NCBI GenBank assembly: GCA_916610825.1
Contig: OU744449.1
Span: forward strand, 27,688,728 to 27,752,727
Length of the DNA: 64,000 nt
Direction: 5' to 3'
Source of the DNA: Haliclystus octoradiatus
Lineage: Eukaryota > Cnidaria > Staurozoa > Stauromedusae > Haliclystidae
A program made the translations under genes and the position numbers. The notes under the pieces were generated by a model, which saw nothing but the letters and a program-made list of their open reading frames with translations, did no database searches and was not told the origin of the DNA. Position 1 is the first letter of the stretch; the number at the start of each line of letters is the position of its first letter. Shown one piece after another: positions 31,875 to 56,500 of the stretch.

Positions 31875-34800
31875 TTATCTTGATTTTCTCAATGAACGAG
31901 ATTTAATTTTTGAGTTCTGTTTTTGTGATTTGGTTTTATTTTTTGATTTCGTGGTGTCTTTCGTCGTACTCTGTTTTTTCAGTTTGTTTGGCGGGTAACT
32001 ATTTAACGGCATGTTCAGAAGAGAACCAGATGACCGTTCTCTGCCTTCTTCATCACGACGACGGCCTCGCGGAGAGGCTGGAGCAGAACGCGAGGCACCT
32101 TGTATTGGTCTGTAATAGTCAACACCATCTAGATGGGTCAATTCAAGGCAGTTCACGATTGAATGGATACCATTTTCTGTATTAGGCTTATTTGGTTGAC
32201 CGCCTGGACAGTGTATTGCATTTTCACCTTCTAACATTTCTTCTCCTTCTTCCACGGAAAATGTTCTTTTAATTAAAACTTGCTCGTCGGTCGGTTCAGA
32301 TAAGACATTTGCCAATGCCTCCGCTTGTGTCTGCCTAGATTTACTATTTTTAGGTGGCGGAGTATCCATTGCAAACGAGGGTCGTACAATTACTTCAGAT
32401 TGAGGTTTTAGTTCAGGATTGTCAGGCGAAGGGGATAACCCAGATTTTCCCTTCTTTCGTAATATTTCTGTATGTTTAGGGGATATAGGTAAACCACGTT
32501 GAGATGAGCTACTACCTGCAGCTGGAGTTAATCGGCTTGCCTCTGTTGTGATGGCGTCGTGAAATGTCGACCGTGACGATGACGGGATCTGTGTATAGGC
32601 TCGAAGCGATGGTGACCACACCTGGTTGGTTGATCCGTCTGAGCTATCATAGGGAGCGAGAGAATAAAAATGTGATGGGGGTGCAGCCATCGATGGTAAT
32701 TCCAGAAGACGAGCGATATTGGTCATTTTACGTAAACGTAATTCACTCCTTCGACGTTGTAAGCGTTGACGGGCTGACATGCAACGTATATAATCATCAA
32801 ACACAAATTTAGCTGATAATAGAGGTATGGAAACGACTTGCCCGCCTGATGGTCCAACAACATTCCGGTTCCGACCGAACGGCCGATGGATGATGACATG
32901 GATGGCACGTGTATCGTTCTTATCAGCTGTCGCTTCAACATCCTTAAAACACAAAGAAAAAGGTTGGCAAAATAGTGGTCAAAATAGTAATATATGTACA
33001 GCCACCACACACGAGCAGATGCATCAGTCTAAATAAAATGGATTCAAACGTGTCCGTATTTAGTGGTTAGGTTAGGGTGTTGAACATTTACCCACAGGGA
33101 TTAACCGACAATATTTGACTTTTAAGACACTACTAAATCACGACAAGAACGGCTTATAAGGATGTTTTTAATGTTTAAATATCATATTGATAAATTAGCT
33201 GATGGATGGTACCCGGAGCATAAGATAAAAGTGGCCAGATAGAAAAATCAGAGACGTGAAATCATTAGAACGCACTCTCAAGTATTCCGATGTAGATCGT
33301 TCGAAGATTGACACAAAAAGAAATTAGTTCAGCATTCTCATATAGGAAACAACTTTCCATAAACTTTTAATAATCTTTTCACAATAGTTTTACCTGTAAA
33401 AGGGCGACAAATTTGACAACACCCCAACCGAGTTTATTTGTATCGGGTTCAACAAGGATAAACTGGTTAGCATCAATGACAAGGAATCGACGGACATTAT
33501 GCCTAGAATAGAAAATAGAAAATACAGTAATATTCGGTTGATACTGCCAGCGCAATGCGCATGCGGGATGCACTGAGGTTGTCACCATCCGTATACTATT
33601 CGTTAGCGGGACTTCAAGCGCGATCCCTGGCGAGCTACAACATCAGAAAGGTCTCTGATGAGTCCCTTGGCAGGGACGAAACACGTGTCAGACAAGCCTC
33701 ATAAATTGATTAATCAATCACTTATTTATTCAACCGGGGCACGATGCCGGGGAGCTACGACACCAGACATGATACGGAACTTTAGGGATCATTTTTTTAC
33801 ATGAACCCCTTTTTATCTGTTACCCTCTGACGCATCGTTTGCCCCCACCCCATTCCTAACAATAGCACTTAATGAATTGCAGATAAGGTATGACACCCTG
33901 AATAATCAATAAACAAAATAATTTATAGCCTCTCTGGACAGTGGCAGATTGATGTTCACATATTTCGAGATATTGCCACAAGCTGTCTAAGTTCTAAATT
34001 GTGAAAAATGAATCGATGAGCGTGTTTAATTTAAGTTTTTATTACCTGTCTGGCGTGATAATGGTACAAGCAATCAAATCGCTATTATCTAGAAAATCAA
34101 GAAACACGAAGTAGTAATAGTAATGATTTAGACGGGGAACACTCTTTACTCTCTAGAAGCTCTTATCTGTTTACTGCGGATCAGTCAGATCCCATGTGAG
34201 GTAGTCACCAGAGGTGTCTTTAATGCGGATTCGAATGCAGTTTAGAATGTAGTTCTCTCTGGACCATTCCAGTCCACCAAGGTAAACCTCCAAGGTGATT
34301 GAACAACATAACATTAGATCTAAGCTTGAGATTCTTGGTTGGAAATGAAAATCGGGCTCAACAGATTATCGGAGTAGTCGCAAGTGCTGTTCACGGCGTG
34401 TCCATTATATTTATATGTATTACAAAATCAAATGTTTAGATGGCACTTACTTAAATCTAAGACATCATTTTCTTTGACTGGTCTTTCGATTTTACTGAGT
34501 GGTAATTCAGTTTCATCTTCATTGCGTAGAAGTAAAGATAATTGTCGAGTTAGAAGGAAGACACGAATGGCCTATCGGATGAAAAAGAAGTTACAGCTTA
34601 TACAGTTAACAGTCAAGGTGAAGTATTCAACACATCATCTTTGAGCATCAAGTAGAGAGTATCTCAAGGGAGCATACCAACCCAACCACCCTACACAAAT
34701 ATTATCACAATGGAGCCTGTACCTAAAAGCCAGCTACGAGAGGTAGATAAATTGACTGCTATATACAGGTGGCCTTTATAAACATGGTTGATTCAATAAA

Positions 34801-53500: not shown

Positions 53501-56500
53501 CCCTTGGACATGCTTTTAGATTAGAACGAGATAGTGGGATGATAACAGATCCTAGAACATTTTCAACTTTTTATGAATTTTTGTTGAGGATTTTGAGCTA
53601 TACGTCAGGAAATATCAATTTTCTTCTGAATTGAAATTGGTGCCTCTGTTTGCTAGTCTTGTAATTGGCATTTGGTGCTTGGCTGATGGGGTGATCTGTG
53701 TAAGTTGTACGTAGTAGGCAATGAGGCCTGTCATCACCCCATCAGCAAGCCCCAGTTACACTGCTAAGTCAGTGGAATTCGTAATCATACTTATTACTTA
53801 CGCATAAAATATGTGAAGTGGAGGGTGGGAGTTAAATCATCGAAACATTGGAATGTAATTTTCCAAGGCGAATAGCTATTGTAGCAGTTGTATTGACCCA
53901 ATGCATTGAGCGCATTAGGGAGTATTAGTATGTAATTGGGTTACTAAGTAATATGATCTCAGGATCCCTACTATTGTTGCACCCTAGATAGTAGAGTTGT
54001 AAAAAGATCAACTTACCAGGTAAATCATCCATTTCATCAAGATACTTTTTATGCTGTACACTATATTCAACTTCAGGTAAATCATGAAACCGATTTTGTG
54101 AACGTTCAACATTTTCAGTTTCACTTCCAGACGTTGATTGGCCAGATATAGAGCCAGATTGAAATTGCTCAAAGAGACGACGCATTTCTTGTCTAAGATA
54201 CACAAATAAATATCAGATGATTAATCAAATACAGACAAATGTTCTCTTGAAGGGTTTTTAGCCCCAATAAATAACAAATTGACTCGACCAAAACATTCAA
54301 GTTTTGAACGTGAGAGGTATCTGCAGTGGAGGAATCTCATTAAAGAAAGGGCTATAAGCGAAATCCGAAGTGCACACTCCAGAACCGGTAGTAGCACTCA
54401 GCTTCTAAAGTAACTTCGCACATATATCGAACCTGTGATTTGTAGCTAATATAACTTTTTCGGATCTTAAGCCAAACGTATAATCTGCCCAGATGTTTTT
54501 TAAACTCTGATTTTGAACGGAAATAAATATATCGGATTCGGATTCAGATTTAAAAATCGTAAATTCCCACGCATAAAGACAATAACAACAAACAATATAT
54601 TAAACATACTGTGTTTCAGGATTGACGCTATTTGATGTTTCATTTGACTCAATTGCCTCTGCTGTTTCACTAAAAACACAAGAAAATATCGGTCAAGATT
54701 AACACTCTTCCATGTTCAGATTCATGGATTACATCAGATAATATAATTGTAATATTAAAATCTGTAAGCCCGATCCAATCACTTTTTTTTGATTGACCAT
54801 CCGAAAAAATTCCGATAAAAATAGACACACTAATACGTACAATTCAAACAAGATAAAAATTATAAAAATTACATTTATATGAAAATTAAGACTTACGCCT
54901 CTTCAACTACTTGGCTGACTTCGCGAGCATGTTCCACAGCACGGCAAAACAATTCAAAATTCTCTGCCATTTCTTCGTCTCTATCCCTCGTTCTATAATA
55001 AAAAGGCTATGATGAATATCGTATTCAGTATCAATTACCTATATGTAGCGGTCACCTCTCTGTAGTGGTCAACTCCGAAAGACAGCAATATAGGGACGAT
55101 CAACTTTTTAAGGTTGTTTATTTCTCAAGTCTATCAAAACAATATTCTAAGATATTGAGTAATTTATTGATACGAAAACAGTTTACCAATATTTCGGTAA
55201 GCATAAAGGATAACCAATAAAAACCAATGACATGCTTAAACACAGAACCTTTTGTACAGGGAGCGTTCACTCATTACGATGAAATTATGAATAACTGTTT
55301 TGAATTAAATACAGGTGAGCAATAACCATAATCAGATATATAACCAGAACCATATACTCAAGTTACCTGTTGATCAATGTATCTGAGATGTCTTCTGGTG
55401 GTGGTGCTGGCATTAAAGGCGTTTCAAGATCTGGATCCGTGTCAACGAACTGAACATGAGGGCCACTTAGAGATCTATAGACCGACAACAACATATATAC
55501 TTTTTATATTATCAGATGTTATGTAATAGCAAAGAAGAATGCCATGATCAATGCCACATGACAGAACAGTTAATAATAATAATAATAGAAATAGAGAGGA
55601 GTCAAAGACCACACATTCTAATAATACTGTTATTTTAAGTTTCATGCTTTCATAGCAATCATCAAATTATCAGATGTTCTCACCCGGTTGTCCAATTCCA
55701 AGAACACATATGCTATTTAAATTAAAACCCTAATCTCGAAACGCTTTATGACGAACAGTAACCCAAGTGATTCTTCGACAAGGCGATTCGTGATTTTCTT
55801 ACGCATTCCTCGTGCCTCATGACGTGTTATACAGTATAACCCATGTTGCATAGAAAATGTTTAATAATTTTTGTATAATAGTGGTCAATTGTCCAGATCT
55901 TATAGGTGGTCGTTATATACAGGTTTTACTGTATTCTATTGAATCAACCCTGCATATAAAGGTCACCTGTTTGAAGGGGGCAGTTGTCCAGATCTTATAG
56001 GTGGTCGTTATACACGGGTTTCACACTATAAAAGTTATACTCCTTTAAATTTTAAAATTGTAGTTGAGGGTTGAATCGTTCGTAGCGTATCCACAAGTGT
56101 GACAATAAATTAAACAAACAAACCTGTCTCTTGTTCGTGATGTGTTATTATCAGTATGAGGCTCATTCGGTTCATCAAACACCTTTAGAATAGAAATGAA
56201 ATCATCAATGATTCGCTTGACATTCAGGTCTCAAGTATTTGTATATAGCGAGTGTTGTTTCTATGTAGATGACTTACTGGTTGATCGGCATCGATGTCTG
56301 TAATGTTGCTTTCAGGTAAAACGGAGTAATATTGATCACCTATACGATTAATTGATAGATAATGAAATCAAATTGAGACAAAGATGAGGCAAAGCCTTTC
56401 CGTAACTCCAAGTTTCACGTGTTTATTTCACGATCATCAGACGGTATGAAAGTTTTGAAAGCCTCATCTTTGTCTCAATTTTATATCATGCTCTGTTTTA

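Follow-up and report, generated by a model that had tools for sequence, protein, structure and literature searches.

In Penelope-like elements (PLEs), small variants of the hammerhead ribozyme (HHR) have been described whose loop is palindromic and which cleave in dimeric form (Lunse, Weinberg and Breaker, as reported in PMC6466107 and PMC7761336), and the role of the HHR in these elements has been called a mystery (PMC7761336). Because palindromic stems III had already been remarked on in eukaryotic HHRs (PMC3088659), the idea of a dimer is not new. We analysed a 64,000-nucleotide stretch of the Haliclystus octoradiatus genome, hereafter the window (contig OU744449.1, positions 27,688,728 to 27,752,727), in which a sequence-only reading had pointed out four hammerhead-like motifs. 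HHR cores of the form CTGATGA ... GAAA ... UH are indeed present at all four places, and a covariance model added a fifth, decayed one:

33655 to 33689, plus strand: copy 1, type I hammerhead of the retrozyme type; expected cut 33689/33690
35746 to 35779, minus strand: copy 2, PLE-type hammerhead with damaged stem II; expected cut 35746/35745; 48.8 bits
45043 to 45079, minus strand: copy 3, PLE-type hammerhead; expected cut 45043/45042; 53.8 bits, included in the model
56404 to 56440, minus strand: copy 4, PLE-type hammerhead; expected cut 56404/56403; 56.7 bits, included in the model
55623 to 55677, minus strand: fifth, decayed PLE-type hammerhead found with the covariance model; 22.4 bits, E 0.0022

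Copies 2 to 4 are very probably solo or truncated pseudo-long terminal repeats (pLTRs) of three Penelope-like families, and copy 1 a decayed unit of a non-autonomous retrozyme built of ~183-nt tandem units. Measured against the open PubMed Central literature, the kinds of carrier are known and dimeric PLE hammerheads are in print; what is added here is a clear genome-scale signature of intermolecular pairing.

The four motifs are, judged by their sequences, genuine hammerheads. A descriptor comprising the core, a stem II of at least 3 pairs (the first of which may be a mismatch), a stem III of at least 2 and a stem I of at least 3 matched three times in the window (copies 1, 3 and 4), whereas 400 dinucleotide shuffles averaged 0.0175 matches and never gave more than 1. 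When stem II was ignored all four copies were matched; the shuffles then averaged 0.2525 matches, with at most 2. The copies thus show a type I core with three helices and an open stem I, copy 2 having two mismatches in stem II. We also built a covariance model of our own from 11 types, which include copies 3 and 4 and a close relative of copy 2 but not copy 2 itself; the scores listed above for copies 2 to 4 come from this model. In the 11-type alignment 93.9% of the cells are paired, 19 cells are altered on both sides of a helix, a number that none of 500 shuffles reached, and four of five measures of covariation over the whole structure exceed the shuffles. The compensatory stem changes whose absence would have spoken against ribozymes, according to the sequence-only reading, are therefore present.

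Stem III of copies 2 to 4 has the pairs A-U, C-G and U-A closing a loop of three letters; it reads ACU-UGG-AGU in copies 2 and 4 and ACU-CCG-AGU in copy 3. The earlier description of a two-base-pair stem III must be corrected to 3 bp with a 3-nt loop, and the copies, taken before as one family, represent three families of one class, differing in stems I and II. The base of stem II carries U.U and C.A mismatches in copy 2, whose relative at locus L062 retains CGUU/AACG pairs, and a U.U mismatch in copy 4; stem I of copy 3 has 3 bp. The same U.U is found in HHR_Amex2 of axolotl (PMC7229834), which has a short stem III and works better as a dimer but sits in a ~350-bp retrozyme, unlike the PLE pLTR here. 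The variants of Lunse and colleagues (PMC6466107, PMC7761336) share with our copies the minimal type I core, the very short stem III, the self-complementary loop and the PLE home. They are said to need a tandem arrangement, whereas close neighbours in this genome mostly stand head-to-head, one on each strand, with direct tandems also present.

A genome-wide count of the family, proposed in the earlier reading, gave 2,173+2,278 = 4,451 PLE-type HHRs with the single pattern CTGANGAN{8,14}GAAACTNNNAGT, compared with 2+2 matches for the reversed pattern. The loop is YNR in 3,492 of them (47 being CNA) and ANT in 852, which puts complementarity of its outer letters at no fewer than 4,297 of 4,451 (96.5%), a lower bound since GNC and GNT loops were left out. 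In the 100 places listed, the outer letters are complementary in 96, and adjoining letter pairs in 29 and 41; composition leads one to expect 56%. Counted by distinct types of stem II plus loop, 57 of 61 are complementary, with a permuted mean of 34.5 and a maximum of 46 in 20,000 permutations, a contrast that is overstated because the types share ancestry. The outer pair of the 11 types is UA in four, CG in three, UG in three and AU in one. Stem II TCGCCTTGGCGT occurs with loop AAT or CTG and stem II TCGCTTAGGCGT with TTA, TGA or TAA; thus, the outer letters change together and the middle letter is free. A form with an 8-nt stem III gave 157+148 = 305 matches against 0+3, and most of its 100 rows listed contain the perfect palindrome ACTATAGT. 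Self-duplexes were computed at -6.8 kcal/mol for copies 2 and 4, -7.8 for copy 3 and -10.3 for copy 1, and copies 3 and 4 together form a full 9-bp helix (-11.9 kcal/mol). A one-base loop cannot close a helix. With the outer letters complementary, the natural reading is therefore a stem III between two molecules, and the sequences point to such intermolecular pairing as a potential of these RNAs.

The carriers of copies 2 to 4 have the following parts in the window:

56371 to 56557, minus strand: copy 4 insert, 187 bp; arms 56461-56481 and 56370-56390 form a 21-bp inverted repeat
56355 to 56370, minus strand: right target-site duplication of copy 4, 16 bp, exact
56558 to 56573, minus strand: left target-site duplication of copy 4, 16 bp, exact
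35690 to 35789, minus strand: copy 2 repeat unit (35789-35707) followed by the first part of an extension on one side (35706-35690), from the starts and ends of genome matches
45018 to 45081, minus strand: copy 3 repeat unit, genome-wide, from the starts and ends of genome matches

The copy 4 insert has at least 80 matching stretches in the genome (40 of 1,014 candidates were scored). Exact flanking repeats of 13-21 nt were found at 15 of 21 family loci chosen among the best matches, the ribozyme unit frequently faces an inverted copy head-to-head, and only one side bears a tail of ~75-80 nt. Among the first 100 listed places of the 4,451-match pattern, all 13 same-loop neighbour pairs within 500 nt are head-to-head, as are 22 of 22 neighbour pairs within 1 kb in the copy 2 family and 21 of 22 in the copy 3 family (the window's own row excluded). 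The edges of the units are sharp: 43 of 60 other rows of the copy 2 family start at query position 52 (35789), 10 nt ahead of CTGATGA, with paired arms ending at query 134 or 151, and 39 of 61 other rows of the copy 3 family start at query 60 (45081), 2 nt ahead of CTGATGA, most ending at query 123 (45018). Such an edge close to the core, seen also at loci L021 and L028, corresponds to the head-to-head junction. As the pLTR has the ribozyme at one edge, head-to-head pLTRs carry a ribozyme on each strand.

In longer members of the PLE families, a 721-aa open reading frame (ORF) recurs in tandems of ~2.5 kb, each ORF preceded by an HHR. A fold search with a relative of this ORF returned telomerase as the best match, identifying a telomerase-like reverse transcriptase in elements of this class, which also show direct or inverted pLTRs, a one-sided tail and target-site duplications. 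Among 120 relatives listed, one bears a species name (Solemya velum, 44% identical to the ORF), and P0002, a 44%-identical relative, matches PF01541 at 26.2 bits (cut-off 22.6). We read a candidate GIY-YIG motif in the 721-aa sequence itself. A sequence search of solved structures gave nothing useful, and Pfam searches with five pieces of family loci only weak, unrelated matches below cut-off. The Penelope of Adineta vaga (PMC3846280) is similar in its head-to-head inverted pLTRs, palindromic junctions, solo pLTRs, one-sided tail and flanking duplications; its tail measures 31 bp and its duplications 8-10 bp, compared with ~75-80 nt and 13-21 bp here, and a word listing of that paper did not contain 'hammerhead'. 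Near the copies themselves, a direct repeat of 10 nt at 45130 and 44992, by copy 3, may be due to chance, and repeats flanking copy 2 at a spacing of 658 nt were set aside, as they look like another dispersed repeat. Further hammerhead families were seen in the flanks of loci L017, L029, L079, L080 and L085. As these loci had been fetched for other reasons and the families sit there by chance, hammerhead families must be dense in this genome.

Copy 1 belongs to a different kind of element, represented in the window by the following features:

33600 to 33738, plus strand: copy 1 stretch that recurs across the genome in ~183-nt tandem units; possibly followed by a partial second unit (weak)
44675 to 44724, minus strand: decayed relative of copy 1 with damaged core, E 3.5e-5
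23986 to 24022, minus strand: decayed relative of copy 1 with damaged core, E 4.2e-4

This 139-nt stretch has at least 81 matches in the genome (40 of 495 candidates were scored). Two or more units were present at 19 of 20 loci checked, the exception being the window itself, where a partial second unit was suggested by a MAFFT alignment alone and BLAST found none. The tandem periods are 180-186 nt, with 144 and 177 nt also occurring at one locus. An exact family pattern gave 51+61 = 112 matches in the genome and none in the control, and stem II alternates between GUCCC/GGGAC and GUUCC/GGAAC. Tandem ~183-nt units, each with an HHR, give the family the retrozyme pattern, that is, units of 170-400 nt with a type I hammerhead in each. 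In this respect it is similar to the metazoan retrozymes without long terminal repeats (PMC7229834); it has a sequence of its own. Neither of two exact patterns matched among viral contigs, a collection from which records of this genome are possibly excluded.

With regard to the host genes, two minus-strand Pfam matches, FPL at 44700-44918 and CLEC16A_C at 31875-32975, represent parts of CLEC16A; copy 2 therefore lies inside this gene in sense and copy 1 in antisense. Copy 3 is located just upstream of the FPL exon. The FPL match begins at profile position 19 of 148, and hence an earlier CLEC16A exon is expected. Copy 4 is upstream, and in sense, of a polycystin domain (Pfam, 49530-50612); two candidate exons near 57 kb had no Pfam match, and we read copy 4 as intronic in the polycystin gene. 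A search with the polycystin piece returned no relatives. Three intronic copies in sense had been claimed before: copy 2 within CLEC16A and the sense orientation of copy 4 stand, whereas the intron positions of copies 3 and 4 are expected or read from the sequence. Copies 2, 3 and 4 and the decayed hammerhead at 55623 all have the same orientation as the host genes. With the ribozyme pairs imposed, the fold in local context lies above the best one by 4.8 kcal/mol in copy 4, by 9.0 in copy 2, by 14.9 in copy 3 and by 16.6 in copy 1, energies that exclude tertiary contacts. Just upstream of the core, copies 1 and 3 have 6-7 nt complementary to it (CATCAGA, TCAGAC), which pair over it in the predicted best fold:

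33630 to 33665, plus strand: core-complement region of copy 1
45070 to 45110, minus strand: core-complement region of copy 3

According to these predictions, the complement could be a ribozyme off-switch or could have arisen by chance. The proposal that the copies cleave CLEC16A or polycystin pre-mRNA finds no support, given the two bad stem II pairs of copy 2, the 3-bp stem I of copy 3 and the fold costs. The modelling makes cleavage of host RNA unlikely, with perhaps weak cleavage by copy 4.

Several results weigh against reading the copies as PLE pLTRs and a retrozyme unit. The Rfam hammerhead models, to which the earlier reading had referred, gave no match at the gathering threshold in the window or in ten family loci; copy 1 appeared below threshold as Hammerhead_1 (31.4 bits, cut-off 34, E 8e-4), and copies 2 to 4 were absent from the Rfam list for the window at E up to 10. 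Further pair types in the 11-type alignment are not above shuffles (13 versus 13.4, reached by 388 of 500). Flanking repeats measure 9-10 nt at 4 of the 21 copy 4 family loci (off place at L013), and there is none at 2. The 721-aa ORF has no Pfam match, and no GIY-YIG chain was among the best 50 matches of either fold program, which barely covered residues past 498. One PLE hammerhead had no effect on insertion in vitro (PMC11167929). The Rfam result would also fit chance matches, an explanation that the shuffle test, the 4,451 versus 4 matches for the reversed pattern, the 112 versus 0 for the copy 1 type and the compensatory changes leave with virtually no probability; we reject it. Another alternative takes copies 2 to 4 as fold-back DNA transposons, similar to miniature inverted-repeat transposable elements, with the hammerhead in terminal inverted repeats, as head-to-head arms are the rule and many elements are short palindromes. 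The long and variable flanking repeats (13-21 nt), the tail at one end only and the reverse transcriptase-like ORF of longer members make it very unlikely, and inverted pLTRs, solo pLTRs and a one-sided tail have been described for Penelope (PMC3846280). Genome copies, the reverse transcriptase ORF, tandem units, direct repeats and compensatory changes instead support what the sequence-only reading proposed, a connection with Penelope-like and retrozyme-like elements and action as dimers. Most likely, two ribozymes in transcripts of such elements would pair their ACU-NNN-AGU segments into a common stem III, a helix of 8 bp around a central mismatch, and would cut after UH, trimming multimeric RNA to units.

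The complementary outer letters might also reflect common descent or a preferred triloop within a single molecule, since the copies are kin, so that the 61 types are not independent, and a single molecule could form a 3-bp stem closed by a 3-nt loop. We consider this unlikely in view of the covariation of the outer letters, with a free middle letter, within the TCGCCTTGGCGT and TCGCTTAGGCGT stems II, the four pair types and the prevalence of ACTATAGT in the listed rows of the 8-nt form. If stem III forms between molecules, many hammerheads would pair in trans, even across families, because most hammerheads that lie close together are arranged head-to-head, on opposite strands; and since pLTR edge, inverted junction and ribozyme edge fall at the same place, retrotransposition may use ends that the ribozyme helps to define. 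A tentative suggestion is that intermolecular pairing is under selection in thousands of this genome's PLE hammerheads, many of which would pair in trans, with the ribozyme perhaps setting those ends. A genome with at least 4,451 PLE HHRs, many stem types and a retained stem III signature allows one to ask whether dimer cleavage is selected, and supplies candidate RNAs for a test of it. Use by the host, in which ribozymes in CLEC16A and the polycystin gene would cleave the pre-mRNA and so tune expression in the manner of the conserved hammerheads in amniote introns, would agree with the sense orientation of copies 2, 3 and 4 and the decayed 55623 copy. Membership in families of dozens to thousands, the damage in copy 2, the antisense position of copy 1 and the hairpins covering the core in copies 1 and 3 argue so strongly against it that we regard it as highly improbable. 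The host-gene copies would rather be by-products of insertion, probably with little effect on host RNA, and for CLEC16A and the polycystin gene the hammerheads are most likely without importance.

The window holds other repeats. One dispersed repeat, around CAAACCTGTTATAACGGTCACCT, is also found near copy 2:

2574-2704, 8274-8424, 34759-34887, 35600-35638, 36184-36313 and 42729-42859: copies of the dispersed repeat

Near-perfect long hairpins at 5757-5839, 10306-10368 and 19511-19593 gave sub-threshold matches to microRNA families, mostly on both strands, and are perhaps fold-back elements. A 177-aa open frame at 43538-44071 (minus strand), which had no Pfam match, looks to us like the terminal part of a non-LTR reverse transcriptase. 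A long AAT microsatellite is present at 36817-36980.

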